Part shown: positions 2,579-63,683 of the stretch, one piece after another | Numbering within the stretch: position 1 is the first letter of the stretch | Layout: every line of letters begins with the position of its first letter | NCBI GenBank assembly: GCA_017448985.1 | Contig: JAFSKL010000024.1 | Location: 1-64,000 of the forward strand | Source of the DNA: Paludibacteraceae bacterium | Lineage (GTDB): Bacteria > Bacteroidota > Bacteroidia > Bacteroidales > Paludibacteraceae | Direction: 5' to 3' | DNA length: 64,000 nt | Notes under the pieces: generated by a model | Told to the model about the DNA's origin: nothing | Database searches by the model: none | Seen by the model: only the letters and a program-made list of their open reading frames with translations | Made by a program: the position numbers and the translations under genes

Positions 2579-2732
2579 GATCAACGCTATCGGTACGGTG
2601 GCTTACACGGACGAGTGCAAGGAGAAGATTGATGCTGCGCGTGACGCTTATGACGCCCTCAGTGCGGACGGCAAGGTCTATATCCTCATCGGCGACCGGA
2701 TGTATGATGCTACGGGAAAACTAGTTGACTAG
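2574..2732 (+). pseudogene. Out-of-frame C-terminal tail of the gene at 2051
   Basis: This frame overlaps the end of the preceding gene and encodes VKINAIGTVAYTDECKEKI, a helical linker (AARDAYDALSADG), and the tail KVYILIGDRMYDATGKLVD. The tail resembles the terminal tails of three intact secreted proteins in this window (31907, 36711 and 40682 genes). No start codon or ribosome site serves it. A shift at the glycine-rich junction near 2570 would rejoin it to the gene at 2051. Its stop codon lies inside an 8-bp word array. Confidence 0.6.
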
Positions 2733-2789
2733 TTGACAAGTTGACCAAATCGTACATCAATCGTACATCGTAAATCGTCCTTCGTACAT
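2723..2789. repeat. 8-bp and 7-bp word arrays
   Basis: Three octamers (agttgact, agttgaca, agttgacc) are followed by heptamer words of the form cgtacat, cgtaaat, cgtcctt, cgtacat. Bases 2759-2789 are identical to 23842-23872, inside the O-antigen ligase gene. Confidence 0.85.
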
Positions 2790-2820
2790 AGAAAAAGGCG
2801 CTGAGAGCGCCTTTTTCTAT
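2788..2820. terminator. Bidirectional terminator between convergent genes
   Basis: A perfect 15-bp stem (atagaaaaaggcgct paired with agcgcctttttctat) has a GAG loop. A and T runs on its flanks let it stop transcription both ways. It serves the gene at 2051 and the leftward operon, whose last stop codon (2817-2819) is inside the stem. Confidence 0.9.
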
Positions 2821-5228
2821 AGTCCAAGGTGAATTCTGAATCGCATACCCCATTGGATGTGCGGACTGAGGGACCAGACGGAATACAGATCGCAGACACG
2901 CAGTATATTGCCCAACCCTATGCCGAGTTCGGCGTAGAGACCGCCCTTCGGGCTGATCGAAGTGAGACCGGCTTCGCCTGTTAGACCGCTAACGCTGTTA
3001 GACAAGTAGCCATAGGCAATCTTGGCTTCTACGAGCTCGCGGAGGTGCAGCCACCGGATACCAGGAATGAGATTGAACAGGATGCCTTGGCCGTTCCACT
3101 CCGTTTGGAGCGTCACATACTTGTCAGCCATCAGTTCTCCGCCGTGCAAGAAAGTGAAGCGGTAGGGATCATAGGCGTAGCCCTGGTTCGCGTCTGCCTG
3201 CCATAAGAGCGTCTGCGGTACGCGCCCGAACAAGGCGCCCGCCTGCAAGGCATAACTCAACGTCCCGCCCATACCCAATTGGGCGTGTTGCGTCAACAAG
3301 ACGCGAAGGTGCGCGTAGAGTTGGCTGTTGGCTATTGACTGTTGGCTATTGGCCCAGTGCCCGAACTCGGCTCCTATGGCTAATACAGGGTACTTGCTCG
3401 AGTAGGCGTACCTCCGCATGAAATAGCCGTCGTACTTGCGTTCACCCCAACTGAGGCGCGCTATCAGACTCAAAGACTGATAACTGATGACGGACGAAGG
3501 ATCGCTCACCGATGCCGGCATCCATCCTGCCCGCACATAAGCGCTGGTCTCTACTTTGTCCGTCCAATCGGCGAACCAGTGGAGCTGCAGTTGGCGTTGC
3601 CGGAGCGCCGTGTTGACGCAGAGCGAGTCCCTCTTAAGCGCCTCAAAGGCATAAGCCGTGAAGTCGAAGTTGCGCCAGCCCATCGAGTTCTCCCTAAGCA
3701 ACCGGTCGAAATCGTCCACCTCGGACCATACATAGCGGTCGTTGTACTCGAGCTGCAGGGTGTTCTTACGCGGCGTAGGCAGGTTAACCGATATACGTCC
3801 CATACCCTTCGGACTGCGGTCCTTGAAGCCGTAGCCCACACTTGCCTCTAATGACACTACTTTCGAGAAGCGCTCGTTGGTGCGGAAAGGTAAGCCGATA
3901 TGCACTCCCTCGTGTTGATTTACCTGCAGTATCTCCTCTACGTGACCGATATCGACCGGCGTGCCCGTAGGTATATAGCCCGTCATAGCGATCGTGGCGA
4001 ACCACTTGGCGGTGCGCATCAGCGGCAAGGAGTCCAGCGCCGCAAATGCGGTGTCGGCGGCGGCAGTGGTTGGTTCGAGATGTCGAGATGTCGAGACCTC
4101 GAGATCTCGAAGATCCGCCGCCTTGTTTCGCAGCGAGGTGGTAAGCAGCAATGTCGGGAAGACGGTGCCGGCTTTCTCGCTCTTGATGGTGAAATCGAGT
4201 AGTACGGATATCGACTCGTCGGCTATAGTCCCGTCTTCTGCCAAGGTCTGGTTCACATGGAGCGTGTTCACATAGTTGACCGCTACCTCTGCCGGTACAT
4301 AGGCCTGAATGGAGCGCAAGGCATAGTTGGTGGTATCGATCACCATCTCGCCGTTGAAGGTGGCGTAGAAGGGATTCCTCGTCCTGAATGAAATTCGGAC
4401 GAGGTTGGTCGTTAGTCCGGTCAGGGCCTCGTTGGTCGTTGGATCATCCTCTTTGAGGATGTAATACCGGTAGTATAAGTTTCCTCCTGCGGCGAGAGGG
4501 GAGAGGAAAGCGTGACCCATGAGGCTGACGCTGTTCGCGTAGAAATTGAGGTTACCCTCATTGCCGAGCAGGGTGGAGTAGTCGGTCTCGCTCAGTATCA
4601 GCGCTTGGGTGCGCTGGTCATTGGCAGGGATCATTTCCGGTCCGCTGAACCGGAAACTCTGCGTCTCGCGGTACAATGGCAGGATGTAAGTCGAGTCCTC
4701 TTGGGCGATCATTCCCGCCTGCAGGCTGCGCCATAGTGCCCGTCTGAGCTGGCGTTTGCCGATATGCGACACGAAGAGTGTCTGTTCTTTCTGCGTCGTG
4801 AACACCCGATTCTTATGCATCGTCCGGTCGTTGGCCTCACGATGTGCCCGCACTTGCCTGAGCAGCTCCAAAGCGGGGTTCTCATTGGGTGCTACCACTA
4901 TTTCTGTCAGCGTAGCCGTTTTCTCCCGCATAGCTACTTGCAGGCCTGCTTTTGTACCGGGTTCAATCTCAAAGCGCTGGGTGAAATAGCCGACGGCGGA
5001 AAAGACGAGCTGGCACTTGGCCTCCATATCGACCCGCAAGGCATAATTGCCGTTCTCGTCCGAACTGGTACCTATCTTCGTACCCCGAAAATGGATGTTC
5101 ACATTGGGAATCGCCTCGCCTGTCGTCTCGTTGACTACCTCGCCGACGAGGATCGTCTCGACGGCATAAAGAGGCCAATAGCCAATAGCTAACAGCCAAA
5201 AGCCTATTATGAGTTTGCGGGGTGACAT
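2817..5228 (-). CDS. DUF5686 outer-membrane protein with carboxypeptidase-like domain
   Basis: An 803-residue outer-membrane protein. It begins at MSPRKLIIGF, chosen because a signal peptide follows at once and because it overlaps xerD by only 22 bases. Residues about 25-110 form a carboxypeptidase regulatory-like domain (GEVVNETTGEAIPNVNIHF, then TSSDENGNYAL). The rest fits the DUF5686 family, a Bacteroidota barrel with TonB-receptor-like architecture and unknown substrate. It is the last gene of the rpmH-rbfA-permease-lipoprotein-xerD operon. Three word arrays lie inside its coding sequence without breaking the frame: 3321-3355, 4077-4108 and 5176-5203 (the last within the signal peptide). 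Confidence 0.85.
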   Translation of the reverse strand: MSPRKLIIGFWLLAIGYWPLYAVETILVGEVVNETTGEAIPNVNIHFRGTKIGTSSDENGNYALRVDMEAKCQLVFSAVGYFTQRFEIEPGTKAGLQVAMREKTATLTEIVVAPNENPALELLRQVRAHREANDRTMHKNRVFTTQKEQTLFVSHIGKRQLRRALWRSLQAGMIAQEDSTYILPLYRETQSFRFSGPEMIPANDQRTQALILSETDYSTLLGNEGNLNFYANSVSLMGHAFLSPLAAGGNLYYRYYILKEDDPTTNEALTGLTTNLVRISFRTRNPFYATFNGEMVIDTTNYALRSIQAYVPAEVAVNYVNTLHVNQTLAEDGTIADESISVLLDFTIKSEKAGTVFPTLLLTTSLRNKAADLRDLEVSTSRHLEPTTAAADTAFAALDSLPLMRTAKWFATIAMTGYIPTGTPVDIGHVEEILQVNQHEGVHIGLPFRTNERFSKVVSLEASVGYGFKDRSPKGMGRISVNLPTPRKNTLQLEYNDRYVWSEVDDFDRLLRENSMGWRNFDFTAYAFEALKRDSLCVNTALRQRQLQLHWFADWTDKVETSAYVRAGWMPASVSDPSSVISYQSLSLIARLSWGERKYDGYFMRRYAYSSKYPVLAIGAEFGHWANSQQSIANSQLYAHLRVLLTQHAQLGMGGTLSYALQAGALFGRVPQTLLWQADANQGYAYDPYRFTFLHGGELMADKYVTLQTEWNGQGILFNLIPGIRWLHLRELVEAKIAYGYLSNSVSGLTGEAGLTSISPKGGLYAELGIGLGNILRVCDLYSVWSLSPHIQWGMRFRIHLGL
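3321..3355. repeat. Heptamer array inside the DUF5686 gene
   Basis: Five units: ttggctg, ttggcta, ttgactg, ttggcta, ttggccc. On the minus strand it is translated as the insert-like string NSQQSIANSQL in the barrel region. Confidence 0.85.
4077..4108. repeat. Octamer array inside the DUF5686 gene
   Basis: Four units: gagatgtc, gagatgtc, gagacctc, gagatctc. Bases 4092-4110 are identical to 51193-51211 in the DUF4861 gene. Confidence 0.85.
5176..5203. repeat. Heptamer array in the signal-peptide region of the DUF5686 gene
   Basis: Four units: caatagc, caatagc, taacagc, caaaagc. Read leftward they encode GFWLLAIGYWP, so the hydrophobic core of the signal peptide is itself made of array words. 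Confidence 0.85.
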
Positions 5229-6115: not shown

Positions 6116-6693
6116 GGGATGAGGGCGCCGCTAAACGAGCAGTTATAAGTGGAACGCGTACCGTAGGTGTTGCGGTAATAGAGCGTGAAAAGGAGGCTGT
6201 CGTTGCGATAGACGAACGAGCCGGAGTCCAGCACCTGGATGCGGGAGATATTGCTCTCCTGGATGTCCAGAAGGTACATGCCGTGAGGCATTCCTTCGAA
6301 ATCGCGACCGGGCAGAAAACTGAAGGCTGAAATCTGATAGCTGACGGCTGATAATGAGTCCGGCGGAATGGAACGGTACTCACCCGATTCTAACAACGAG
6401 TCCGGCACGAAGATATCCGAGAGGTAGAGGTTGTAACCCGTCCCCTCTATCTTGTGCTCCTCGTTGAGCGTCAAGCCTTCCGAATAGAGGTCGAGCGCTA
6501 CCACTGCATACGGCACCGAGTCATAGCAGTGCCCGTAAACCTCTTCGTAGGCTTGTGTATATTCCTTCGGCATCCCGCTGCGATAGGTAGGCGTCGAGGG
6601 CTTGCAGGCCGCAAAGACCGTTAGCACTGTGAGAAGTGTGACCGCTGCCGCTGTCAGACCGTTTATACTGTGCGATTTGTTCATATCTTTCAA
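6100..6693 (-). CDS. Predicted lipoprotein, unknown function
   Basis: A 197-residue protein with a lipoprotein signal: a hydrophobic stretch TAAAVTLLTVLTVFAAC with the lipobox cysteine near residue 30. The mature part is rich in Tyr, Ser and Asp and has no family I recognise. A second Met at residue 4 is an equally possible start. It lies between the LolC/E-like permease and xerD in one operon, so a role in the envelope is plausible but only inferred. A heptamer array (6320-6354) encodes SAVSYQISAFS in its middle. Confidence 0.65.
   Translation of the reverse strand: MKDMNKSHSINGLTAAAVTLLTVLTVFAACKPSTPTYRSGMPKEYTQAYEEVYGHCYDSVPYAVVALDLYSEGLTLNEEHKIEGTGYNLYLSDIFVPDSLLESGEYRSIPPDSLSAVSYQISAFSFLPGRDFEGMPHGMYLLDIQESNISRIQVLDSGSFVYRNDSLLFTLYYRNTYGTRSTYNCSFSGALIPWVKQ
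6320..6354. repeat. Heptamer array inside the lipoprotein gene
   Basis: Five units: ctgaagg, ctgaaat, ctgatag, ctgacgg, ctgataa. They are translated in frame on the minus strand. Confidence 0.85.
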
Positions 6694-6738
6694 TTTTCCA
6701 TTTTCAATTTTCCATTTTCAATTTTCCATTTTCAATTT
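6691..6738. repeat. Alternating heptamer array across a gene junction
   Basis: Seven units alternate caatttt and ccatttt. The array spans the permease stop codon (6718-6720) and encodes its last residues (KLKMEN). It also runs up to the start of the lipoprotein gene, so it includes that gene's ribosome-binding region. Confidence 0.9.
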
Positions 6739-7977
6739 CCTCGTGGGATAATATGCTGCCACGAAGCCCAGCGCCAAGACGATGACGGCGACGAGCAGCA
6801 CATCCGGAGCCTGTACCTGAACGGGGTAGGCGGAGATGACATACTCGCTTCCGCTGCCTAACTTGAGCCATCCGAAAGCCTGCTGGCAGAGGCACAGCGC
6901 TACGCCGAGGATTAGTCCTATGGCGGTGCCCAGGGACGAGATGAGCCATCCTTCGAGCAGGAAGACACGTCGGATGGCCGATTCATCGGCGCCAAGGTGC
7001 GAAAGGATCCGGATGTCCTCGCGCTTGTCGATGATGAGCATCGAGAGCGAACCGATGATGTTGAAGCTCGCGATGAGCAGGATGAAGACCAACAGCAGTA
7101 CCGTGAGCCATTTCTCGATGCGCAGAATGCGGAAGAAATCCGCTTGCTGCTCGTAGCGGTCCAGCACTTTGTATCCCGGCCCTAACGATTTGGAAATCTT
7201 CAATTTTAAATCTCCAATCTTCATTGTGCTCTTCGGCTGAATCCGAAGAGCACTTGCCGTGTACTCGTCGTAACCGAAGAGCCGTTGGGCCATCGGGAGT
7301 GAGACCAACAGGAGCTGGTCGTCGTACTCGATCTGGTTCACCGCAAAAGTGCCGGCGATGAACGCGTGTTCATGGCGCAGCGACTTGTCCGGTCGCAACA
7401 GGTTCACCGTACCCGTTCGTTCCGGTGCGTAGAAATGCAGCGCTCCTACGAAATGGGCGTTCATACCTATCTGTGCCGCGAGTCCGCGACCCAACACCGT
7501 TCGTTCAAAGGCTCCGTCGTACACCGAGTAATAGCCGTCGGTGATGATGGAGTCGATATGCGCAGTGCGCGCGAACAGACTGTCCACGCCCAACACCCGC
7601 GCGGGCGTCTGATGGTCCTTGTAGCGGATAAGCGCCGTCTGCTCCAGTTGCATCGAGACAGCCTCTATGTCCTCGCGCGCGTACAACGAAGCGACAGGCA
7701 GCGTGTCGGTACGAAGTGTCTGGCCTTCGGCCGGTACCACGAGTAACGGCGGGTCGAATTCCGAGAACATATGTTCGACCAATGCCCCGAAACCGTTCAT
7801 CACGCTTAGCACACAGATCATCGCCGCTGTAACCACAGCTACAGCGGCGGCACTGATGCCGGAGACGATGTTGATGGCGTTATGCCCTTTCTTCGAGAAC
7901 AGGTACCGCCAGGCGATATGGAAATGAAATGTTTTAATGATGTAATGTTTTAATGATGTATTTAGATATTGTATCAA
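6718..7977 (-). CDS. ABC transporter permease, LolC/LolE-like (FtsX family)
   Basis: An inner-membrane permease of 419 residues from the FtsX/MacB group, probably for lipoprotein release or export. It has an N-terminal membrane segment (IAWRYLFSKKGHNAINIVSG), a large periplasmic domain from about residue 70, and three C-terminal membrane segments with the FtsX-like run VLLLVFILLIASFNIIGSLS. The ATPase partner is not in the window. No ATG exists upstream of the conserved N-terminus. The frame opens after TGA with TTG at 7977, and the first 15-18 residues (IQYLNTSLKHYIIKTF) are built from repeat words. The start is therefore TTG or an unusual codon. A further array at 7194-7221 is translated as KIGDLKLKISK. 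Confidence 0.85.
   Translation of the reverse strand: MIQYLNTSLKHYIIKTFHFHIAWRYLFSKKGHNAINIVSGISAAAVAVVTAAMICVLSVMNGFGALVEHMFSEFDPPLLVVPAEGQTLRTDTLPVASLYAREDIEAVSMQLEQTALIRYKDHQTPARVLGVDSLFARTAHIDSIITDGYYSVYDGAFERTVLGRGLAAQIGMNAHFVGALHFYAPERTGTVNLLRPDKSLRHEHAFIAGTFAVNQIEYDDQLLLVSLPMAQRLFGYDEYTASALRIQPKSTMKIGDLKLKISKSLGPGYKVLDRYEQQADFFRILRIEKWLTVLLLVFILLIASFNIIGSLSMLIIDKREDIRILSHLGADESAIRRVFLLEGWLISSLGTAIGLILGVALCLCQQAFGWLKLGSGSEYVISAYPVQVQAPDVLLVAVIVLALGFVAAYYPTRKLKMEN
7194..7221. repeat. Heptamer array inside the ABC permease gene
   Basis: Four units: aaatctt, caatttt, aaatctc, caatctt. They lie in the periplasmic-domain coding part and are in frame. Confidence 0.8.
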
Positions 7978-8337: not shown

Positions 8338-8340
8338 TAA

Positions 8341-8688: not shown

Positions 8689-8689
8689 T

Positions 8690-16678: not shown

Positions 16679-17782
16679 ATGCGTAGCTACACTCTTTCCG
16701 AACTATGCAATGAGATAGGCGAGGTGCTGAGCGAAAGCTTGGCGCCTTCTTATTGGGTCCGCGCGGAGATCAGCAGTCTCTCCGTCAAAGGCGGACATAT
16801 GTACCTCGATCTGGTCGAAAGCGCAAAAAGCCAACTGCCAATAGCCAAAATGCGGGCTACCTGTTGGGCGGGAACGCAGGAATTGATCTGCACCTATTTC
16901 GAATCGGAGACGGGACAATGGCTGCAGGCGGGAATGAAAGTGCTGGTAGAGGCAGAGGTCCAATGGCACGATGTCTATGGGCTCAGCCTCTCTATCCTTA
17001 ATATCGACCCTTCTTATACGCTGGGTGACATAGCCCGTCAGCGCCAGCAGACGATAGCTCAACTGCAAGCCGACGGACTGCTCGATGCCCAGCAACTGCT
17101 TCCGCTGCCGACGCTCATCCGGCGCTTAGCCGTTATCTCTTCTCCCGATGCCGCCGGCTATGAGGACTTCAAGCATCAACTCGATAGTTCACCTTTCACC
17201 TTTCACCTTTCCCTTTTCCCTGCTACCATGCAGGGTACCTCCGCTGCAAAATCCATGCTCGCTGCCCTCGATGAAATCTCCTCCAACGACCAACGACCAA
17301 CGACTAACGACCAGTATGACGCAGTCATAATAATCCGCGGTGGCGGTGCCACTACTGATCTCAGTTGCTTCGATGACTATAACCTTTGCGCTGTCTGTGC
17401 GCAGTTTGAACTGCCTATCCTCACCGGCATCGGTCATACACGCGATGTGTCGGTGCTCGACCTTGTGGCCCATGAGGCGCTTAAGACTCCCACAGCTGTC
17501 GCCGAATGGCTCATCCATCGTTTGGAGGCGCAACAGGGCCGCTTGGAGGATCTCTTGGTTCGCTTACGGCGAACGGCTGACCGGCAGAAGATGCTACGGC
17601 AACATCGGGTAGAACTGCTCGAGCAGCGCCTCGCTGCCTGCAATCCCGAATGGGTCTATCGACGCGGCTACAGCCTCCTCACCCTTAACGGCCAAGTGGT
17701 GCGCTCCGTCCGTGACCTCCATAGAGGCGACATCCTCACTTCGCACCTTGCCGACGGCTCTGTGCAAAGCACTGTGTTATGA
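16679..17782 (+). CDS. xseA: Exodeoxyribonuclease VII large subunit
   Basis: A 367-residue catalytic subunit of the exonuclease that degrades single-stranded DNA. It starts at MRSYTLSELCNEIGEVL, where family members begin. An OB-fold N-terminal domain (YWVRAEISSLSVKGGHMYLDL) precedes the central domain with the hallmark IIIRGGGATTDLSCFDD and GIGHTRDVSVLDLVAH. The helical C-terminus is shorter than in E. coli XseA, as is usual in this phylum. Two heptamer arrays (17189-17218 and 17284-17311) are translated as SPFTFHLSLFPA and NDQRPTTNDQ at variable loops. No xseB gene follows. The next gene overlaps the stop by 4 bases. Confidence 0.9.
   Translation: MRSYTLSELCNEIGEVLSESLAPSYWVRAEISSLSVKGGHMYLDLVESAKSQLPIAKMRATCWAGTQELICTYFESETGQWLQAGMKVLVEAEVQWHDVYGLSLSILNIDPSYTLGDIARQRQQTIAQLQADGLLDAQQLLPLPTLIRRLAVISSPDAAGYEDFKHQLDSSPFTFHLSLFPATMQGTSAAKSMLAALDEISSNDQRPTTNDQYDAVIIIRGGGATTDLSCFDDYNLCAVCAQFELPILTGIGHTRDVSVLDLVAHEALKTPTAVAEWLIHRLEAQQGRLEDLLVRLRRTADRQKMLRQHRVELLEQRLAACNPEWVYRRGYSLLTLNGQVVRSVRDLHRGDILTSHLADGSVQSTVL
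17189..17218. repeat. Heptamer array inside xseA (first)
   Basis: Three exact tcacctt units are followed by a degenerate tcccttt. They encode SPFTFHLSLF in the catalytic domain. Confidence 0.9.
17284..17311. repeat. Heptamer array inside xseA (second)
   Basis: Three exact caacgac units and one taacgac encode NDQRPTTNDQ directly before the catalytic-core strand. The same words recur at 39738-39786. Confidence 0.9.
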
Positions 17783-28403: not shown

Positions 28404-28436
28404 TTTTTAATTCTTAATTTTTAATTTTTAATTCAT
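28402..28436. repeat. Heptamer array between the kelch and LTA-synthase-like genes
   Basis: Units aattttt, aattctt, aattttt, aattttt, aattcat. It covers the 3' end of the LTA-synthase-like gene (stop at 28414) and the start of the kelch gene. Confidence 0.9.
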
Positions 28437-31103: not shown

Positions 31104-31110
31104 AAGAAAT

Positions 31111-31145
31111 AATTTTTAATTCTTAATTTTTAATTCTTAATTTCC
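31111..31145. repeat. Heptamer array between lptB and exonuclease III genes
   Basis: Units aattttt, aattctt, aattttt, aattctt, aatttcc. It includes the stop codon of the exonuclease gene and the leader of lptB. Confidence 0.9.
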
Positions 31146-33505: not shown

Positions 33506-33507
33506 AT

Positions 33508-33542
33508 AATTTTTAATTTTTAATTCTTAATTTTTAATTCAC
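33508..33542. repeat. Heptamer array between two leftward genes
   Basis: Units aattttt, aattttt, aattctt, aattttt, aattcac. It encodes the last residues and stop of the 117-residue gene and is the leader of the M6 gene. Confidence 0.9.
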
Positions 33543-39992: not shown

Positions 39993-39998
39993 AAAGAT

Positions 39999-40026
39999 AT
40001 TCATTATTCATTAATCATTATTCATT
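39999..40026. repeat. Heptamer array abutting the pqqD-like start codon
   Basis: Units attcatt, attcatt, aatcatt, attcatt end at 40026, and the ATG follows at 40027. The array therefore occupies the whole ribosome-binding region of that gene, with no purine-rich site. Confidence 0.9.
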
Positions 40027-40311
40027 ATGCGAACAATTCCCGGCTTCAAATTGCGCAAATTAGGCAATGAATACATCCTTGTAGGTGAGTCGATGGAACT
40101 CATCAATTTCAACAAGATGATCACGCTCAACGAGACTGCTGCTTTCCTTTGGGAGCAAGCCGAAAGTTTATCCGCCAAGCTTGACGGATTCACCCCTTCA
40201 GACCTCTGCAAACCTCTCTGCGCCGAGTATGATGTCGCGCCCGAACAGGCCATGACAGATGTGGAAGCTACCATCCATTCCTGGCTCGATGCCGGAGTCA
40301 TTGAGGCCTAA
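40027..40311 (+). CDS. PqqD-like protein (RiPP recognition-element family)
   Basis: A 94-residue protein of the PqqD family, small winged-helix proteins that bind leader peptides of ribosomal peptides for modifying enzymes. The pattern EYILVGESMELINFNKMITL, NETAAFLWEQ and a C-terminal helix (TDVEATIHSWLDAGVIEA) is typical. No radical-SAM enzyme or other maturase lies in the window, so it is not evidence for PQQ synthesis. It follows the S26-type peptidase in the same transcript. The 50-residue peptide encoded at 49960 is a candidate substrate only by proximity. Confidence 0.8.
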   Translation: MRTIPGFKLRKLGNEYILVGESMELINFNKMITLNETAAFLWEQAESLSAKLDGFTPSDLCKPLCAEYDVAPEQAMTDVEATIHSWLDAGVIEA

Positions 40312-50170: not shown

Positions 50171-51241
50171 TTAACGAAGTGTCGCTGCCCAGCGGCGAAG
50201 ATAGTTGAGCCACTCTGTTGCATTTGTTGCAACGGGGTGGTCTTCTTTTGTGGCGCCGCAGACGGTGAGGTAGAAATGACAAGTGCCCGGCTCACCATAT
50301 TCGCCAAAACGCTCCTTGCTACTTTGCAGCTGCAGCAGACACAAGTTGTTGCTCCTGTCTTGCACCAATTCGCCGGCAAATTGCTTCGGAATAAACACCC
50401 CTAAACCGACGGTCTCTTTGGCGTACTTGACGGTGTCATTGACGGGAAAATCCGTTCCCCAGGAAGCGAGGAGAATGCCGTTTGGTAATTGGATATTGGT
50501 GATTTGTGATTGGTCATTTGGCCCTTTCGCAGGAATGGTCTGGACGCCGGTACAGAGGCCTTCGATGCGATCGGAGACTTTGACATCGCAACGCATATCG
50601 CGGTGCCCGGCACGCATCGTATACTCGGCTCTTAGGTTCACGATCTTTCGCGTCTCCGGATCGTCCTGTTTGCCATCCGGAACAGTCCAATCGATGTCAC
50701 AAACGGCGATAGTGGCCTTGTCGCGGGTTTGACTGACGATCCACTGTTGGCGCTCGCCTACATCTTCTATATGATAGAGTTTGTTGTTCCAGTATTTGAC
50801 CGTACCGACGCCTACCGTGCCGCTCACGCGTAAGATATCATCGCCGTAGTTTTCTGCCAACAGACTGTCGTTAGGATACCAATAACTCGTCGCCAACTCC
50901 AGGCGCGGTGTGCGTTTGCAATAGACATCAATGGTCTGCTTCTTGTCGAAATAAATACGATAGGCCATCAGCTCACTTTCCACGGCCACGCCATGATGAT
51001 GCAACTGATGGTAGGTGTCTGCCCATGGTCCGTCGTACCAAGCTTTGACAGGATAACAATGCCGCGTCTTGCCTTCCGCGTGAATGACGGTATAGCCGGC
51101 GACGGTTGAGTCCGCAGGAGAGCCAATAGCCCAGAAGGAAGTGGCTACTCGCGGTGTGCAACTCGCGAGCAGGACGCCCATTAGCGAGATGACGAGACCT
51201 CGAGATCTCGAGATTTCGACCGATTTAGTTGATCTTGACAT
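50171..51241 (-). CDS. DUF4861 family lipoprotein
   Basis: A 356-residue lipoprotein with the lipobox LLASC near residue 28 and the DUF4861 pattern (HHHGVAVESELMAYRIYFDK; GDDILRVSGTVGVGTVKYW). DUF4861 proteins occur with pectin- and rhamnogalacturonan-degrading enzymes in Bacteroidota and are thought to act on glycans. The GH28 gene directly upstream supports this. An octamer array encodes its N-terminus (SRSRGLVIS) and a heptamer array encodes NDQSQITNIQL in the middle. It overlaps the GH28 gene by 17 bases. Confidence 0.8.
   Translation of the reverse strand: MSRSTKSVEISRSRGLVISLMGVLLASCTPRVATSFWAIGSPADSTVAGYTVIHAEGKTRHCYPVKAWYDGPWADTYHQLHHHGVAVESELMAYRIYFDKKQTIDVYCKRTPRLELATSYWYPNDSLLAENYGDDILRVSGTVGVGTVKYWNNKLYHIEDVGERQQWIVSQTRDKATIAVCDIDWTVPDGKQDDPETRKIVNLRAEYTMRAGHRDMRCDVKVSDRIEGLCTGVQTIPAKGPNDQSQITNIQLPNGILLASWGTDFPVNDTVKYAKETVGLGVFIPKQFAGELVQDRSNNLCLLQLQSSKERFGEYGEPGTCHFYLTVCGATKEDHPVATNATEWLNYLRRWAATLR
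50484..50518. repeat. Heptamer array inside the DUF4861 gene
   Basis: Units ggtaatt, ggatatt, ggtgatt, tgtgatt, ggtcatt. On the minus strand it reads DQSQITNIQLP, in frame. Confidence 0.9.
51186..51217. repeat. Octamer array at the start of the DUF4861 gene
   Basis: Units gagatgac, gagacctc, gagatctc, gagatttc. Bases 51193-51211 equal 4092-4110. The array extends the N-terminus ahead of the lipoprotein signal. Confidence 0.85.
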
Positions 51242-52790: not shown

Positions 52791-53584
52791 AGGATTATAT
52801 TGTTTGGATAAGTTATTTCTATTAGTGCGAGCCCTTCTGCGGGCGCCGAGTGTCCGGCTTTGCAACGGTCTTTGGCCGCTATCACTTGTGCGAATTCGTC
52901 CGCCGTCATTTTTCCTTTGCCCACTTCAAATAGTGTGCCGACAACAGCACGAACCATGTTTCTTAGGAATCGGTCGGCGGTGATGACAAAACAGGCTTCG
53001 TACTCGTTTTCCTTCACCCAACGGGCCTCGCGAACATCACAAATCGTGGTCTTGACATCCGTGTGTGCGCGGCAGAACGATGCGAAGTCCTGCTTTCCCA
53101 ATAAGGCTTTGCTTGCCTCATTCATAGCGGTAAAGTCTAGGATTGACCCTACGCGGGTACGGAATTGGACCGTGAATGGATCCTTTCGTGTGGTGATGCG
53201 GTAGTGGTAGGTGCGGGAGGTGGCATCGAAGCGTGCGTGGGCATCGTCCGTGACACGCTGAATGGCCTGCACGGCGATAGAGGCGGGCAGGAGACTGTTC
53301 AGGCGTCCGACCAGGTTGGCAGGCAGGCTGCGAAGTCTGCCAAGATTGGCGGAGGGATGGCTGCTTGGATTGGCGGACTGAGCCTGAGGCCAATCGAAAT
53401 GCGCGACCATCTTCTCGGCATGGACACCGGCATCGGTTCGACCGGCGAAGGTGAGAGCCACGGGTTCGCGCAAGATGGTAGCGAAAGCCGCTTCCATTTC
53501 CGCTTGCACCGTGTTTCCGTTCGGTTGCGTCTGCGAACCGTGGAAATCCGTGCCGTTATATGAGAAGGTGATGAAGTAACGCAT
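52787..53584 (-). CDS. truA: tRNA pseudouridine synthase A
   Basis: A 265-residue enzyme that makes pseudouridine at positions 38-40 of tRNA anticodon arms. The catalytic Asp is in FAGRTDAGVHAEKMVAHFD. Other conserved stretches are RYFITFSYNGTDFHGSQTQP, FDATSRTYHYRI and DRFLRNMVRAVVGTL. The length is normal. A short low-complexity part (SANPSSHPSANLGRLRSL) lies in a variable loop. Confidence 0.93.
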   Translation of the reverse strand: MRYFITFSYNGTDFHGSQTQPNGNTVQAEMEAAFATILREPVALTFAGRTDAGVHAEKMVAHFDWPQAQSANPSSHPSANLGRLRSLPANLVGRLNSLLPASIAVQAIQRVTDDAHARFDATSRTYHYRITTRKDPFTVQFRTRVGSILDFTAMNEASKALLGKQDFASFCRAHTDVKTTICDVREARWVKENEYEACFVITADRFLRNMVRAVVGTLFEVGKGKMTADEFAQVIAAKDRCKAGHSAPAEGLALIEITYPNNIIL

Positions 53585-53636
53585 TTACCATTTAGTCATT
53601 TACCATTTACCATTGATTGGACCATTTGGTCATTTA
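53583..53636. repeat. Heptamer array downstream of the first flippase gene
   Basis: Words of the catttac/catttag type. Bases 53590-53636 are identical over 47 bp to 62042-62088. The last bases overlap the flippase stop codon. Confidence 0.9.
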
Positions 53637-55123: not shown

Positions 55124-55254
55124 AAAGCCATTTACGATTTAATCATGAACACTTTTCGGATTTGTTCATTTATTGTTTCATTGAACCATTTAGTTACACG
55201 GCTAAATAGCCAAATGGTACATAAATGGTACATGGTACATGACAAAATGGTAAA

Positions 55255-56499
55255 TTACTTAATCGCCAATAACTCAACCGTGAAGATGAGTGCGGCGTAG
55301 GGAGGAATGGACTGTCCGGCACCGCGCTCGCCGTAACCGAGTTCGTACGGGATGTACAGTTTGTATTTGGAACCTACAGGCATCAGTTGCAGACCTTCGG
55401 TCCAACCTTTGATGACACCGTTGAGCGGGAACTCGATGGGTTCGCCACGCTGGTAGCTGCTGTCGAAGACAGTGCCGTCGATGAGGGTGCCCTCATAGTG
55501 CACTTTGACAGTCTGTTCAGCGGTCGGTTTCGCACCTTTGCCTTCGCGGAGCACCTCATACTGCAAGCCGCTTTCGGTCACTTTGACGCCATCGCGGAGT
55601 GCGTTCTCCTGAAGGAACTTCTCGCCTTCAGCTTTGGTCTCACCATACTTGCGACCGTTGATGACCTGCTCTACATACTGGTTGGCCTCTTGCGAATCCA
55701 TTTGCTCGGTGTAGTTGTACAGACCATTGATGAAGCCTTGTTTGATGAGGTCGTAGTTGGTCTCGAGTCCTTCGATGCCCAGCAGACCTACAGCCTCTTG
55801 CTCACGGATAGCGGTACCGACGCTCTTGGCCATTTGCACCAGTTGCGGGTTACGAACATTCATCTTGAGGCCTTCGTTCACGTTGTCGATGAGCTCATTG
55901 ATGCCTTCGCCGGTGGTGTCGGTGGCCAGCAGGTACATGCTGATTTGCGAACCGTTAGCCCAGCCGAACGAGTAGTTGAGCGAGTCGAGGAACGATTTGA
56001 GCTCGATGGTCTTGGTTTTCTTCGGGCACTTGGCGGTAACAACCTTTGCGTTGGATTCTTCCGGTTGCGTCTGTGTGGCGCGTGTGAGGAAAGCCTCTGC
56101 CTCGGCTTGGCTCAGTACGGACGAGTCCGAGTAGAGGGCATTAACCAGACCTTGGAAGAAGATCTTCTCGTTCAGCGTCCAAGCTTCGCGCTCAGCCAGA
56201 CCTTTCTTCTCAAAGCGCTTTACGGACGAACCTAACTGACGACCCGTCTGGGCGATCTCGCTCAGCGGTTCCTCTTTGTCCAGGTAGGCTGCTTCGAGTG
56301 CGTCAATGAACTCAGTCACTGCTTCGTCACTGCTGTCGTTGCGCAGATAATAGGTCTTGACCTGCAGACCGTTGAGCAGACCGAGGGCATAGTTGACCGA
56401 GTCGATCTCGTTGTTCAGCGTCACTGTCCGTGCCGTGTAACTGTTGCCGCATGAAATCATAGCCATTACGGCAAGAAAAAGAATACTTACTTTTTTCAT
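55255..56499 (-). CDS. FKBP-type peptidyl-prolyl isomerase lipoprotein
   Basis: A 414-residue lipoprotein ([12 protein letters not shown] lipobox, Cys near residue 17). Two FKBP N-terminal helical domains come in tandem (residues about 30-150 and 165-290). The FKBP catalytic domain follows at the C-terminus ([38 protein letters not shown]). Periplasmic folding helper, probably anchored in a membrane. Its catalytic domain is nearly the same as that of the next gene, which points to tandem duplication. The gap upstream (55124-55254) is made of words such as aaatggtacat. Confidence 0.9.
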
Positions 56500-57061: not shown

Positions 57062-57088
57062 AATTTTAATTCTTAATTTTTAATTCCC
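57062..57088. repeat. Heptamer array before the FKBP gene
   Basis: Units aatttt, aattctt, aattttt, aattccc at the ribE-FKBP junction. It includes the last codons of ribE. Confidence 0.85.
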
Positions 57089-57703: not shown

Positions 57704-59149
57704 TTATTTGTGATTTGTGATTTCTGATTTGTGATTTAATATTGCGGATAAGGGGAAGTCCTTGCGGGTGAGGACGAAGAGGTAGATACCGATGAGGACC
57801 GTGCCGATGCCCATGAGGATCCACATGTTGTGGATGTAATAGAGTCGAAGGGCGTAATAGACCGCGAGCAGTCCGAGCGTCAGGGCCGTGTAACGACCGA
57901 TGACAGGCAGGTCGTAGGGGATGGGTGCTTTCTTCTGGCCGATGAAATACGACAGGAGCATTATGACAAAGTAACAAACCAGACTACTTCCGCAACTTGC
58001 CCAATAACCGATCCGCGGAACGCCCACTATCTGCAACACCAGCGTGATCACCAGACCGATGATGGAGAAATATGCTCCCCACTTGGTCTCGTCCGTCAGT
58101 TTGTACCAGAAACTGAGGTTGAAGTAGATCCCTTGGAAGACATAGGTCCAGAGCACGACCGGCACTATCTTCAGGCCGTCCCAGTAAGCGCTGGAGACGA
58201 TGTAGCGGAAGATATCGAGGTAGAAAATGACGCCGAGCAAAATGAGGAACGAGAAGATGATGTAGTACTTCATCGCGTCGGCGTAAGCTTCGGCGGACTG
58301 CCGGTCCTTATGCTTGGAGAAGACGAAGGGTTCGTAGGCATAACGGAAGGCCTGCGTGAACATCATCATTACCATTGCCACTTTGAAACAAGCGCCGTAG
58401 ATACCCAACTGTGCCTGCGCGTCTTCGCCCGTATAGAGGTACGGGAAGAGGATGCGGTCCAGCGTCTGGTTCATGATACCTGCCACGCCCAAGACGAGCA
58501 GCGGCAGCGAATAACGAAGCATCTCTTTGAGCACTTGTGCGTCGAATCGTCCGCCTTTTGGGAATGTGAACGGAAGCAGACATAGTGTCTGGATCGTGGT
58601 GGCAAGGATATTGCTGAGGAAGACGTAGAAGACATCGTTCTTCTTGAGGACTACCAGGAACAGCAGGTTGAACGCTATGTTGAGGAGCACGAACAGCAGT
58701 TTGAGTGCAGCAAAGCGGATCGGTCTTTTCTGGTAACGGAGGTAGGCAAACGGGATGGAGGCAAAGGCATCGATAGCCACGGTGGTCGCCATCATCGCAA
58801 TGAACTCCGCATGTCCGGCGTACCCCAAGGCGTTGGCGATGGGGTGTTGAAACAGGCAGACGAGTACGGCAAACAGGGTGCTCGTGGAGAACAGCGTCAG
58901 GTAGGCGGTCTTGTAGACATCATTGGCGTTGTAGTCTTCGCGGTTGGCAAAGCGGAAGAAGCCTGTCTCCATACCATAGGTGAGGAGGACCAACAGAAGG
59001 GCGGTCCACGCGTAGAGGTTGGTGACGACGCCATAATCGGCTGTTCGTGCCAAGGCGTAGGTGTAGAGCGGTACCAAGAGGTAGTTGAGGAACTTACCGA
59101 TGATGCTGCTCAGTCCATAGATGGCGGTGTCCTTCGCCAAAGATTTCAT
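57704..59149 (-). CDS. Oligosaccharide flippase-like membrane protein
   Basis: A 481-residue protein with 12-14 membrane helices. I start it at MKSLAKDTAIYGLSSIIGKF, the family N-terminus. An ATG five codons upstream (MVNGS) is made by the repeat words of the junction and is less likely. The last residues (ILNHKSEITNHK) are encoded by the heptamer array at 57711-57738. Family role: translocation of lipid-linked sugars. Confidence 0.85.
   Translation of the reverse strand: MKSLAKDTAIYGLSSIIGKFLNYLLVPLYTYALARTADYGVVTNLYAWTALLLVLLTYGMETGFFRFANREDYNANDVYKTAYLTLFSTSTLFAVLVCLFQHPIANALGYAGHAEFIAMMATTVAIDAFASIPFAYLRYQKRPIRFAALKLLFVLLNIAFNLLFLVVLKKNDVFYVFLSNILATTIQTLCLLPFTFPKGGRFDAQVLKEMLRYSLPLLVLGVAGIMNQTLDRILFPYLYTGEDAQAQLGIYGACFKVAMVMMMFTQAFRYAYEPFVFSKHKDRQSAEAYADAMKYYIIFSFLILLGVIFYLDIFRYIVSSAYWDGLKIVPVVLWTYVFQGIYFNLSFWYKLTDETKWGAYFSIIGLVITLVLQIVGVPRIGYWASCGSSLVCYFVIMLLSYFIGQKKAPIPYDLPVIGRYTALTLGLLAVYYALRLYYIHNMWILMGIGTVLIGIYLFVLTRKDFPLSAILNHKSEITNHK
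57711..57738. repeat. Heptamer array at the end of the second flippase gene
   Basis: Units tgatttg, tgatttc, tgatttg, tgattta. It encodes the C-terminal NHKSEITNHK and lies against the ribE start. Confidence 0.9.
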
Positions 59150-59188
59150 CGAACCATTTACCATTTTCTCATTTTCTCATTTCTGCAT

Positions 59189-59857
59189 TTAGTCATTTTG
59201 TCCCGCTACACAAATTACTATCTCGCCTTTGGGCGGTGTTTGTTTAAAATGACCAATCAACTCTGTCAAAGTGCCTCGAATGGTCTGCTCGTGCAGTTTG
59301 CTTATCTCTCGTGAGACGGAGGCTTTGCGTTCGTCGCCGCACACTGCCGCCAACTGCTCAAGGGTCTTGACCAGACGGAAGGGCGATTCGTAGAGGATGA
59401 AGGTCTCGTCCAATGCGGCCAGGTACTGCAAGCGCGTCTGCCGGCCTTTCTTCTGCGGGAGGAAACCCTCGAAGTAGAAGTGGTTATTGGGTAAACCGCT
59501 GTCCACCAGTGCCGGTACAAATGCTGTAGCTCCGGGCAGGCATTGGATCTCGATGTCAGCTTCTGCGGCTGCCCGGACGAGGAAGAATCCTGGGTCCGAG
59601 ATGGCCGGAGTGCCGGCATCGGAGATAAGCGCGATGTTCGCACCCGCTTTGAGGCGCTCCACGATGTCCGCTGAGGTCTCGTGCTCGTTGAACTTATGGT
59701 GCGACTTGAGGGGTGTATGGATATCGAAATGCTGAAGGAGCACACCGCTGGTACGCGTGTCTTCCGCCAAGATCAGATCCACTGATTTCAGCACTTCGAT
59801 TGCACGGAACGTTATGTCCTGCAAATTCCCCACCGGTGTCGGCACGATGAACAGCAT
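59189..59857 (-). CDS. rsmI: 16S rRNA 2'-O-ribose methyltransferase RsmI
   Basis: A 222-residue SAM-dependent enzyme that methylates C1402 of 16S rRNA. Signature stretches are MLFIVPTPVGNLQDITFRA, LILAEDTRTSGVLLQHF, LISDAGTPAISDPGFFLVR and LPGATAFVPALVDSGL. The C-terminal helical domain is short, as in other Bacteroidota. Confidence 0.93.
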   Translation of the reverse strand: MLFIVPTPVGNLQDITFRAIEVLKSVDLILAEDTRTSGVLLQHFDIHTPLKSHHKFNEHETSADIVERLKAGANIALISDAGTPAISDPGFFLVRAAAEADIEIQCLPGATAFVPALVDSGLPNNHFYFEGFLPQKKGRQTRLQYLAALDETFILYESPFRLVKTLEQLAAVCGDERKASVSREISKLHEQTIRGTLTELIGHFKQTPPKGEIVICVAGQND

Positions 59858-59889
59858 TCTTAATTCTTAATTTTTAATTTTTAATTTAC
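59855..59889. repeat. Heptamer array between rsmI and the coiled-coil gene
   Basis: Units cattctt, aattctt, aattttt, aattttt, aatttac. It covers the start of rsmI and the stop of the upstream gene. Confidence 0.85.
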
Positions 59890-60470: not shown

Positions 60471-60480
60471 GAAGAATTTT

Positions 60481-60501
60481 CAATTTTCAATTTTCAATTT
60501 A
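60481..60501. repeat. Heptamer array at the end of the POT transporter gene
   Basis: Units caatttt, caatttt, caattta. The last includes the stop region of the transporter gene. Confidence 0.85.
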
Positions 60502-62025: not shown

Positions 62026-62041
62026 AACTTTTATATTTACG

Positions 62042-62088
62042 ATTTAGTCATTTACCATTTACCATTGATTGGACCATTTGGTCATTTA
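62042..62088. repeat. Heptamer array downstream of ilvE, copy of 53590-53636
   Basis: Forty-seven bases identical to 53590-53636 in the same orientation. It supplies the ilvE stop codon (62086-62088). Confidence 0.9.
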
Positions 62089-63141
62089 GTCAATGATGTC
62101 GCACCAATGGTGCGAGTCCTCAGCGCGGCCGTACTGGATGTCCTTGAGGGCGCGGTAGAGGTCCGTGAGTACTGGTCCGGGTTCGCTGCCGAAGCTGTAC
62201 TCTTTGCCCCGTTCGGGATCCAGGACGCGGTCGATGGGCGAGATGACACAGGCTGTTCCGCAAGCTGCGGCTTCGCACATGTCCGCCAACTCTTCGAGCC
62301 GTATCTTGCGTCGCGTCACTTTGATGCCCCGTTCCCGCGCCAGCGTCATCAGACTGTCGTTCGTGATACTCGGCAGAATGGCACTCGACCGCGGAGTCAG
62401 GTACTCATATGAGGACGCTTTCGCCCCCTCTCTTGAGGAGAGGGTCGGGGAGAGGTTTTTAATTCCAATAAAATTGGCAGCCGAACATTCATCTATGTAG
62501 CGGTGCGTCTTGGCATCGAGGAAGAGGCAGTCGAGACCCATGGCGTGAGCTGCTTCGGTGGCGCGGAAAGAAGATGCGTAGTTACCGCCTACCTTGAACT
62601 GTCCCGTACCGAAGGGTGCTGCCCGGTCCACATGGCGGTTGACGATGAAGGTCGTGCAGTGGAACTTGCCCGGGTAGTACGGACCGATGGGCGAGGGGAT
62701 GACGATGAACTCAAAGTCCTGTCCCGGACCTACGCCCAAACGGGGTGTCGTGCCGATGAGTAACGGACGGAAATAGAGCGTGGCACCCGTTCCGTATGGC
62801 GGTACCAGTTCGCGGTTCCTGTCCAAAGCCAGCCGGATAGCCCGTCCGAACAGTTCCTCCGGTACCGGCGCCATGAACAGTCCTTCCGCACTGCGGGCCA
62901 TGCGCTTGGCGTTCTCGCGCCAGCGGAAGATGCGAATCTTGCCGTCCACGCCGCGGAACGCTTTCAAGCCCTCGAACGCTTCCTGACCGTACTGCAGGGC
63001 CGTTGCCGACACATGCAAGTGCAGGTATTTGTCCTGCGTGGCGTAGGGGTCGCTCCAAGCGCCGTTATGGTATCCCGCCCGAACGATGTATTCCGGTTCG
63101 GTATAATGAAAGCCCAAACTATTCCAATCAATCTCTTTCAT
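62086..63141 (-). CDS. ilvE: Branched-chain amino acid aminotransferase
   Basis: A 351-residue PLP enzyme for the last step of Leu, Ile and Val synthesis and the first step of their breakdown. The PLP lysine is in GTGQFKVGGNYASS (near residue 183). Other landmarks are YGQEAFEGLKAFR and ECSAANFIGIK. Start MKEIDWNSLGFHY is taken. An ATG directly before it is made by repeat words. About 17 residues (NLSPTLSSREGAKASSY) replace the usual short turn between FIGIK and YLTPRSSAILPSITN, which is an in-frame insertion of a palindromic element. Confidence 0.92.
   Translation of the reverse strand: MKEIDWNSLGFHYTEPEYIVRAGYHNGAWSDPYATQDKYLHLHVSATALQYGQEAFEGLKAFRGVDGKIRIFRWRENAKRMARSAEGLFMAPVPEELFGRAIRLALDRNRELVPPYGTGATLYFRPLLIGTTPRLGVGPGQDFEFIVIPSPIGPYYPGKFHCTTFIVNRHVDRAAPFGTGQFKVGGNYASSFRATEAAHAMGLDCLFLDAKTHRYIDECSAANFIGIKNLSPTLSSREGAKASSYEYLTPRSSAILPSITNDSLMTLARERGIKVTRRKIRLEELADMCEAAACGTACVISPIDRVLDPERGKEYSFGSEPGPVLTDLYRALKDIQYGRAEDSHHWCDIID
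62415..62462. repeat. Palindromic element inserted in ilvE
   Basis: The core ccctctc-ttgag-gagaggg (62426-62444) is followed by tcggggagagg. Such ccctctcc...gagaggg elements occur as intergenic repeats in Bacteroidota. Here one is translated. Confidence 0.65.
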
Positions 63142-63171
63142 CATTCCATCATTCTATCATTCCATCATTCA
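63140..63171. repeat. Octamer array between the WbqC-family gene and ilvE
   Basis: Units atcattcc, atcattct, atcattcc, atcattca. The array touches the ilvE start codon and provides a second ATG. Confidence 0.9.
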
Positions 63172-63683
63172 TCAAATAGCGTGTCCAGCACGCTCAATTC
63201 CGTTTGCCACGGATGTCTGTCTGTCCATATCTGTCCGCTCCAGTCGGTAGTACGATTTTCAATTGTCGATTGTCGATTATCGATTATTGACGGCCTTTCT
63301 TTGTTTAACAGGGCGACCAATGTGGCATTCAGTTCGTCATTCAGGTCCAGCAACCATTTGTACTCTTTCTCGTAGAACGGCCGCAGGTAGTCCGCAAAAT
63401 AGAGGAAGTACGGCGTGTGTTGGTAGGCGCTCACGAGTGTTATCCAATGCTGGTGTTGCCAGCGCGTCTGGTAACTGATCTCAATGTCGCGTGTCAGTTG
63501 TTTATGTTCTACTTTCTTCACCGGCACGGTCAGACGGACTAATTCGCCTTTTGCGTCACGGATGAGGCTCCTGTTCCGAAAGGTCTGTTTCTCGAATGTC
63601 TCCATCTGTTCGATCGTGGCAGGTTCGCTCATCAGCGCCTCCATATACGACCTCGGCGGCAAATAGGCTGTTGGCAAAATCAT
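63165..63683 (-). CDS. WbqC-family protein
   Basis: A 172-residue protein of the WbqC family, found in glycan loci and next to signal peptidase genes in Bacteroidota. Biochemical role unsettled. Recognisable stretches are MILPTAYLPPRSYMEALM, ETFEKQTFRNRSLI and WITLVSAYQHTPYFLYFADY. A heptamer array at 63262-63289 encodes IDNRQSTIENR between the central helix and the C-terminal helix. It overlaps the lepB stop by 3 bases. Confidence 0.8.
   Translation of the reverse strand: MILPTAYLPPRSYMEALMSEPATIEQMETFEKQTFRNRSLIRDAKGELVRLTVPVKKVEHKQLTRDIEISYQTRWQHQHWITLVSAYQHTPYFLYFADYLRPFYEKEYKWLLDLNDELNATLVALLNKERPSIIDNRQSTIENRTTDWSGQIWTDRHPWQTELSVLDTLFDE
63262..63289. repeat. Heptamer array inside the WbqC-family gene
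   Basis: Units attgtcg, attgtcg, attatcg, attattg. They are translated in frame on the minus strand. Confidence 0.9.

Follow-up and report, generated by a model that had tools for sequence, protein, structure and literature searches.

Many-worded heptamer arrays in operon spacers and protein loops of a Paludibacteraceae genome and its relatives

The 64,000-nt stretch analysed here, referred to as the window, comprises positions 1 to 64,000 of contig JAFSKL010000024.1 of a Paludibacteraceae bacterium (GenBank assembly GCA_017448985.1; genome G000, 2.36 Mb in 45 contigs, 97% complete), and its genes and spacers are interspersed with short tandem arrays of a drifting word, mostly 7 and less often 8 nt long. 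An initial sequence-only reading had listed 20 period-7 and four period-8 sites. The words are present at all 24, and Tandem Repeats Finder returns a row at 23 of them, with period 7 or its double at 19 of the 20 period-7 sites and a row at each of the four period-8 sites; site 6320 is reported solely as period 14, and site 7194 has no row. Four further arrays, at 62035, 55222, 7924 and 59155, are returned by the program and were absent from that list.

Unless noted otherwise, the arrays lie on the minus strand. The first (period 8, ACTAGTTG, 2720..2745, strand unassigned) stands between genes. The DUF5686 open reading frame (ORF) 2817-5543 holds a period-7 array with the sense word AACAGCC (3320..3353), a period-8 array (TCGAGATC, 4075..4115) and, near its 5' end and just below the stop of ORF 5207-6115, another period-7 array (5174..5204). 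ORF 6100-6693 contains a weak period-14 array (6311..6344), its junction with ORF 6718-7977 is spanned by the 51-nt array (AAATTGAAAATGGA)n (6688..6738), and ORF 6718-7977 includes the weak drifting period-7 word run that escaped Tandem Repeats Finder (7194..7225). The exonuclease VII large-subunit gene xseA (16589-17782) itself holds two plus-strand period-7 arrays with different words between 17188 and 17313, namely TTCACCT (17188..17221) and CCAACGA (17283..17313). A period-7/14 array (23835..23869) lies in a Wzy_C (O-antigen ligase family) gene (22773-24026), and a further one (AATTAAGAATTAAA, 31110..31143) at the junction of ORFs 31130-31894 and 30369-31103. The word pair AATTAAA/AATTAAG occurs as a period-7 array three times: bridging the 10-nt gap 28404-28413 with the ends of the ORFs on either side (28398..28433), filling the spacer between ORFs 33534-33887 and 31907-33505 (33507..33539), and filling that between ORFs 59886-60470 and 59189-59857 (59856..59887).

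Within an S24/S26 peptidase-like gene (39507-39992), a plus-strand period-7 array of CAACGAC units extends over 53 nt (39735..39787), and an AATAATG array (period 7, 39998..40028, strand unassigned) follows the gene and overlaps a 96-aa ORF on the opposite strand. The DUF4861 gene 50171-51241 carries a period-7 array (50482..50518) that adds 3 residues relative to the ortholog median, together with a period-8 array (TCGAGATC, 51185..51219) at the N-terminal end, adjoining the stop of the GH28 gene 51225-52865. Further along, period-7 arrays occupy the spacers between ORFs 53630-55123 and 52787-53584 (CATTTAC, 53582..53614), 55255-56499 and 53630-55123 (imperfect TAAATGG, 55222..55255), 60499-62025 and 59886-60470 (AAAATTG, 60475..60500), and 62086-63144 and 60499-62025 (AAATGGT, 62035..62066), and another lies between ORFs 57073-57699 and 56531-57046 (AATTCTT, 57062..57086). 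An AAATCAC array of period 7 (57706..57737) sits at the C-terminal end of the Polysacc_synt gene 57704-59164. Period-8/16 arrays are found in the spacer between ORFs 59189-59857 and 57704-59164 (59155..59202) and where ORFs 63165-63683 and 62086-63144 adjoin, GAATGATG (63137..63174) extending there from the stop codon to the start codon. The last array (period 7, AATCGAC/AATCGAT, 63253..63290) lies in the hypervariable loop (residues 132-144) of a WbqC-like protein.

The peptides named in the sequence-only reading are indeed encoded, as SNDQRPTTND in XseA, VRRTIYDVRFTI in the Wzy_C protein and NDQSQITNIQLPN in the DUF4861 protein, and residence at gene junctions and in variable protein loops, which it had also proposed, is supported. 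Its statement that arrays inside genes never bring a stop codon is true but reflects survivorship and requires no bias of insertion: an array of period 7 with at least three units reads every triplet of the circular word, so that only stop-free words fit inside an ORF. Moreover, many of the listed sites fall in operon spacers rather than in genes.

The excess of period 7 was assessed at two scales. A segment scan of the window (threshold 12) yielded 15 arrays of period 7, seven of period 8, two of period 9, one of period 10, two of period 11 and none of periods 2-6, against shuffle means of 0-0.05. In a genome sample of 464 kb of the 2.36 Mb (the window plus 20 stretches), exact arrays of at least 2.5 copies, a fairer criterion because it is set by copy number, were compared with dinucleotide shuffles: period 7 gave 73 arrays (0.7 in shuffles), next to 9 for period 5 (9.0), 6 for period 6 (1.7), 10 for period 8 (0.3), 1 for period 9 (0), none for period 10 (0) and 4 for period 11 (0). 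The comparison with periods 5, 6, 9 and 10, named in advance as the one on which the proposal could fail, thus shows a clear period-7 excess, and the two tests together rule out a chance origin of the arrays. Period 3 also exceeds its shuffles in the 464 kb (2031 vs 1439), as codon structure would yield, and period 4 does not (95 vs 106). The same count of period 7 gives 123 vs 1.3 in 709 kb from the 38 nearest named loci and 6 vs 2.7 in 40 stretches from other parts of the phylum, totalling 758 kb.

These 38 records (L047-L084) were chosen by the window's POT transporter gene and are metagenome assemblies, whose titles, where a source is given, mostly name ruminant or other animal gut; 19 are titled Paludibacteraceae and the rest uncultured Bacteroidales or Candidatus Colicola. 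Period-7/14 arrays reach 24.8 per 100 kb in G000 and 25.9 in the 38 loci. Among other POT-locus records, grouped by title, the densities are 15.7 for Rikenellaceae/Alistipes (7 loci), 10.3 for Parabacteroides (2), 8.4 for Prevotella (14), 6.8 for unplaced Bacteroidales (12, one titled Paludibacteraceae) and 3.6 for Muribaculaceae/Bacteroidaceae and others (6). Values are lower still in other families of the order (1.5; 8 stretches), the rest of the class (1.9; 13) and other classes (2.2; 19), and 50 kb of Escherichia coli MG1655 contain no such array. Three records from isolates were also inspected: two period-7 arrays occur in Parabacteroides massiliensis (L086), and none in the stretches examined from two Prevotella. 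G000 is the array-richest of the seven genomes that were counted over longer stretches. Five contigs of the IMG/VR viral collection (L240, L241, L242, L246 and L256), selected for holding such a heptamer word, are densely set with arrays of several words, at 6-19 period-7/14 arrays each in 4.5-13.6 kb, with a G+C content of 0.57-0.68 and including AGTCGAA/AGTCGTG mixtures; L240 has 19 arrays in 13 kb.

Operon spacers constitute one major residence of the arrays. Ten junctions of the 52.8-63.7 kb region were compared by homology across relatives, giving 279 distinct junctions, of which 110 have a gap below 5 nt and never an array, and 152 have a spacer of at least 15 nt, with an array in 78. 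By period, these 78 comprise 44 arrays of period 7, 21 of period 8, six of period 11, five of period 9 and one each of periods 6 and 10. In 33 of the 44 period-7 cases the array extends into the upstream stop region and ends a median of 1 nt from the start codon, and there the array constitutes the whole spacer; the other 11 begin after the stop and end a median of 5 nt from the start codon. One junction is a gene overlap in one genome and holds tens of nucleotides of an unrelated word in another. Read on the sense strand, the word includes a stop triplet in 29 of the 33 stop-touching arrays (antisense 13) and in 8 of the other 11 (antisense 2). A role as three-frame stop cassettes was considered and set aside: the first count was biased because longest-ORF calls absorb stop-free arrays, and the sense bias that persists in the homology-based count is mostly explained by seeding, since 33 of the 44 arrays include the upstream stop region.

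Other arrays lie inside proteins. In the S24/S26 peptidase-like gene, three relatives lack 14 or 15 residues at the CAACGAC array, the aligned span measures 26-61 residues among 121 sequences (the query and 120 listed of 927), and homologues 84-96% identical have loops ranging from empty to array-filled. In six homologues (P0039, P0048, P0066, P0076, P0091 and P0108) this loop instead has a peptide of type SPLPLGEGRGEA, which may be an in-frame palindromic element. Among 36 aligned sequences of the WbqC-like protein, 19 period-7/14 arrays occur, 16 of them in a single loop (window residues 128-148) with many unrelated words and three near residue 50; that loop shows 53 different peptides among 121 sequences (120 listed of 2290). 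Pairs at least 98% identical outside the loop have loops less than 50% identical in 28 of 280 cases, and pairs 95-98% identical in 328 of 817. Across 13 gene families, 86 non-terminal coding arrays were found, of which gene 59886 contributes 27, mostly of periods 12, 9 and 15. The remaining 59, which lie in homology-supported genes with orthologues counted apart and are sequences, not independent events, comprise 34 of period 7, 12 of period 14, five each of periods 8 and 15, two of period 9 and one of period 6. Units divisible by three, which long simple sequence repeats (SSRs) would favour in genes, thus do not prevail, period 7 or 14 accounting for 46 of the 59, or 47 of the 86 with gene 59886 included. 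Some ORF ends of 57704 orthologues, set by alignment, overran a stop, but the rows concerned are few or terminal and the argument is independent of them.

Turnover between relatives was followed over 516 flanked arrays from the window and 55 stretches, in 3362 array-genome pairs with both flanks aligned; some of the 55 stretches are the same contig twice, and these fill the 100% identity band. With flanks 97-100% identical, array length is unequal in 5 of 11 period-7 pairs (one contig present twice accounting for two of these), and with flanks 92-97% identical in 47 of 72. Copy-number change in unit steps is clear in individual cases: between L056 and L060, where an AATTGAG array measures 18 vs 53 nt (5 units) and a 9-nt array 7 vs 61 nt (6 units), and between the S24/S26 homologues P0011 and P0006, whose loop lengths differ by exactly 7 residues. 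At three sites, between flanks 99.6, 99.1 and 97.5% identical, the array of L057 is not that of L039; sequence is partly shared at one end at the latter two, and L053 has nearly the L057 array at the first, which suggests a possible contribution of recombination. Of 74 alleles that lack the array but have flanks at least 90% identical, 25 include the exact word, with 3.6 expected, which leaves local seeding or remnants as an explanation for part of the arrays only. The comparison of array positions and lengths between close relatives, proposed at the outset, hence revealed both length variation and swapped arrays, and this turnover, with 24.8 period-7/14 arrays per 100 kb over 464 kb, supports the suggestion of an active genome-wide process.

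The words themselves form lineage-specific vocabularies that are nearly all-or-none. They recur far above the level of random same-context 7-mers (in G000 coding sequence, for example, Simpson value 0.0169; null mean 0.0015, null maximum 0.0052), and with same-word arrays within 3 kb counted once, the probability that two words match is 0.0240 within and 0.0066 between seven genomes, a value that none of 1000 permutations reached. Same-word pairs at 3-20 kb number 38 in six genomes, where 500 permutations give a mean of 23.0 and a maximum of 35. The pattern CAACGACCAACGAC, or (CAACGAC)x2, has 28 matches in G000, which fall on both strands at 21 sites in 15 contigs, against 19 in G015 and one in G009, with none in 18 of 21 genomes, including G001-G003, the closest by POT protein (75-90% complete), and none anywhere for the reversed control. 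For AATGGACAATGGAC the counts are 37 in G000, 21 in G004, 18 each in G002 and G032, 13 in G026, 5 in G030, one each in G003 and G018 and zero in 33 of 41 genomes, with a single reversed-control match in total. The case of CATTAACCATTAAC is weaker, with 11 matches in G002, 3 each in G001 and G004, 2 in G000 and none in 17 of 21 genomes, but up to 5 per genome for the reversed control; AATTTTTAATTCTTAATTTTT occurs 27 times in G000 and 0-5 times in 40 congeners, its symmetry making the reversed control uninformative.

Beyond the word, little is shared between such sites. Among 23 (CAACGAC)n sites in 20 loci (10 of the 21 G000 sites and 13 of the 15 in G015), no common flanks were found, bar overlapping windows within one locus, and in the other word families inspected the one pair seen with shared flanks, G002:C2:97260 and 302581, has the look of a duplication of the region. 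In 14 of the 20 loci the array lies within an ORF of 80 aa or more, with the word on the sense strand in all 14, as expected if polar peptides survive; same-word pairs are weakly concordant in orientation, both along the chromosome (69 of 113) and relative to the gene (105 of 170). Fifty-eight word classes were distinguished in one genome sample. Within 288 arrays, variation is concentrated by position (0.302 vs a random expectation of 0.115); the idea that each unit has a single hypervariable position is nevertheless weak, nested duplication explaining the concentration equally well.

Other features of the window are of different kinds. A 33-bp tandem repeat (345-459; 3.5 copies, 97% match) in the minus-strand ORF 89-469 is an 11-codon repeat unlike the heptamer arrays. 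Period-11 arrays (e.g., 24-68 and 36038-36145) form a second class that is mostly intergenic by longest-ORF calls (13 of 17 in the G000 sample, 25 of 29 in the 38 named loci), and some are common to relatives at the junction of genes 56531 and 55255. An AAA_14/DUF4143 ATPase (520-1896) matches the PADLOC model PDC-S01 (E 1.6e-175). Two ORFs are very large, 8663-15493 (2276 aa) and 40682-49948 (3088 aa); the latter opens with a 9-nt (40698-40733) and an 8-nt (40745-40769) array, so that its true start may lie downstream. Scans of the window for Rfam families (gathering cut-offs) and tRNAs gave no matches.

Several known repeat systems invite comparison. Tandem heptamers occur in cyanobacterial genomes as the short tandemly repeated repetitive (STRR) heptanucleotides, which the sequence-only reading had mentioned. 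Rickettsial palindromic elements are longer palindromes inserted in frame into many unrelated proteins, and the present arrays also lie in frame in unrelated proteins but are tandem words, mostly of 20-60 nt, without common flanks. According to Mrazek et al. (2007), as cited in PMC4679880, heptamers dominate among 5-11-nt repeats, units of 3n are likeliest in coding regions, and slippage with a 7-nt polymerase contact was proposed; a later survey by the same group describes 4-11-mers as normal or weakly over-represented in prokaryotes (PMC4060949). The arrays resemble these long SSRs, as characterised there, in that tandem runs of 5-11-nt units exceed chance with heptamers commonest, and differ in their drifting units, many words per genome and persistence of period 7 in genes. 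Borg tandem repeats, as described in PMC9879509, are likewise fast-evolving, A-enriched arrays in spacers and ORFs that make new protein segments, but their units are perfect and all divisible by three in ORFs, in contrast to the drifting units and the predominant coding period of 7 in the present arrays.

The nearest precedent lies within the phylum. The sequence-only reading knew of no described Bacteroidota counterpart, and this has to be amended: MacGregor (2015; PMC4679880) described direct repeats of heptamers, TAACTGA among them, in five Bacteroidetes, one being Paludibacter propionicigenes, where one of two TAACTGA sets lies inside a gene near its end. As reported there for Beggiatoaceae, Cyanobacteria and the five Bacteroidetes, TAACTGA repeats are also heptamers, in the main genome mostly placed in spacers a few nucleotides from start codons, patchy among lineages, with relatives whose intergenic regions are empty and one word forming 169 sets in one genome. 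Here the word is different, dozens coexist, and the location just upstream of start codons holds for the spacer arrays only, many others being in protein loops; the TAACTGA pattern TAACTGATAACTGA itself has one match each in 3 of 21 genomes, G000 among them. The account in PMC4692102, which also cites a Calothrix heptanucleotide case, describes GGGAATC in Xanthomonas and GGGGA(C/T)T in Nostoc as dispersed heptamers near ORF ends, mostly of four units with fixed and variable positions. The prominent ones likewise occur at different genes in two related species, but each of these is one G-rich quadruplex-forming family per genome (PMC4692102), whereas the words here are many and mostly A-rich. 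Among the matches listed from the open-access literature, MacGregor (2015) is the one paper touching this family, and none concerns Bacteroidales heptamer arrays of many words. The predominance of heptamers among 5-11-nt repeats, and TAACTGA and GGGAATC as single, widely dispersed lineage-specific words, are already known; new are the many coexisting words per genome, period 7 within proteins, array swaps between near-identical relatives and private vocabularies.

In the reading favoured here, to which a probability of roughly 0.55 is assigned, the drifting arrays, with 7 nt as first and 8 nt as second choice of step, likely arise when DNA synthesis slips or switches template repeatedly in a burst, laying down several units per event. 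Addition of several units at once is suggested by the coding arrays, in which single 7-nt steps would pass through frameshifted states (two per 21 nt). The template would be partly local sequence and partly arrays already in that genome, which would explain how a few words come to occupy dozens of sites with nothing else in common in one genome while most congeners lack them. Selection would then retain harmless arrays, those between stop and start codons having words that mostly bear a stop and those in protein loops necessarily stop-free words. For the step of 7, the contact length of the polymerase is the leading idea, after Mrazek et al. (2007) as cited in PMC4679880. The slippage and templated insertion suggested in the sequence-only reading each gain some support in this way, from unit steps and local seeds on the one hand and genome-specific recurring words on the other.

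Several observations weigh against this account or narrow it. Longest shared strings in 206 same-word pairs measure 17.0 nt, vs 16.3 nt after unit shuffling, and thus give no support to block copying between arrays, which makes templating by existing arrays the least secure step. Once the two commonest words are removed, the clustering at 3-20 kb is weaker: 29 pairs, a number reached by 1 of 500 permutations (mean 16.2, maximum 29). In the full comparison, same-word pairs are no scarcer at 160-400 kb than in the near bins (0.042 vs 0.044 and 0.048), and mosaic genomes could cause the clustering of words. Only 13 of the 47 length differences at 92-97% flank identity are multiples of 7, so simple unit slippage is not the whole story, and coding inserts measure -4 to +20 residues relative to the ortholog median, not multiples of 7. 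No exact copy of the word occurs in 49 of the 74 array-less alleles, and at the chosen threshold 74 of the 152 spacers of at least 15 nt are free of arrays. As the 38 loci all come from around a single gene or operon region, their density may be regionally biased, and longer stretches of six congeners give 11.3 (G014) to 21.7 (G006) per 100 kb, below the 25.9 of those loci. Furthermore, gene calls outside the homology-based tests are of the longest-ORF kind that absorbs stop-free arrays, and the evidence for the mechanism is comparative throughout.

A bolder extension, tentative and in our judgement possible though doubtful, would regard the heptamer words as the smallest known spreading sequences, a handful per lineage being copied ectopically from template at the DNA level into dozens of unrelated spacers and in-frame protein loops, each lineage thus having its own dialect in its proteins, and without reverse transcriptase, Ku or transposon-like flanks. 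Searches of 31 genomes bear on the machinery. The RVT_1 profile has no match in G000, where a divergent reverse transcriptase or one in the missing few percent is possible, and matches 10 of the 31, among them other families of the order (L228-L230) and 5 of the 18 congeners searched. Ku was found in none of the 31, which speaks against Ku-dependent end joining, and MutS in 30 including G000 (the one miss being a 54%-complete genome), which speaks against loss of MutS as the cause. A DinB-type polymerase domain (IMS) is present in 26, G000 among them, from which no conclusion is drawn.

A simpler alternative holds that the arrays are ordinary long SSRs, extended by local slippage one unit at a time, with the recurring words reflecting a sequence preference of slippage. 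Such a process would account for the unit-step length changes, the local seeds and the fact that among the 44 spacer arrays of period 7, 33 overlap the upstream stop region. It also fits heptamers being the commonest 5-11-nt repeats in most genomes, as PMC4679880 cites from Mrazek et al. (2007), and their over-representation in many, as cited in PMC4692102. It is nonetheless rather unlikely: congeners, presumably with very similar polymerases, have near all-or-none vocabularies (CATTAACCATTAAC less cleanly), different arrays stand at one site between flanks 97.5-99.6% identical, and 7 is the prevailing period within genes, although each single step there shifts the frame.

The arrays might, alternatively, be selected regulatory sites, such as repeated binding sites for RNA- or DNA-binding proteins near start codons, as proposed for the TAACTGA repeats. 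The short distance of spacer arrays to the start codon (median 1 nt, n=33, or 5 nt, n=11) and the sense bias of their stop triplets are consistent with such sites, but the words at one junction differ between relatives, in many genomes the genes there abut or overlap, leaving no room for a spacer, and identical words occur inside unrelated ORFs, which renders this explanation quite improbable.

Reverse transcription from a short RNA template, by a telomerase-like or another enzyme, is less probable again. DRT10-like systems make tandem-repeat cDNA from a non-coding RNA, with 9-nt units in one system (PMC12632851), and lineage-specific words do resemble a template; G000, however, is the richest of the genomes counted and yields no RVT_1 match, only 10 of the 31 genomes searched do, and one genome sample has 58 word classes. 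A conventional non-autonomous mobile element carrying the arrays, similar to miniature inverted-repeat transposable elements (MITEs) or rickettsial palindromic elements, would suit the dispersed copies and in-frame protein inserts and had been among the initial suggestions, but in that usual sense it is unsupported and highly improbable, since same-word arrays lack the conserved sequence beyond the tandem word that such elements carry: nothing is shared beyond the array at the (CAACGAC)n sites of two genomes, and the one flank-sharing pair in the other families inspected is apparently a duplicated region. Finally, although most genomes are metagenome assemblies and two of the three isolate records show no period-7 array in their stretch, the arrays are almost certainly not an assembly or sequencing artefact, most being 20-60 nt long and below usual read length, present in assemblies from different studies and in the isolate P. 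massiliensis, and found in loops of proteins with many members in the protein collection (P0139 17, P0141 815).

Heptamer repeats are known from scattered bacteria. This clade offers many close genomes with differing arrays between near-unchanged flanks, seen through two filters, operon spacers and coding loops, so that the birth of an array would become measurable here in terms of units per event, source of the word and dependence on distance. The arrays also point to a mutational process, indifferent to the codon, by which proteins gain new segments, and to one reason why operon spacers vary in length.

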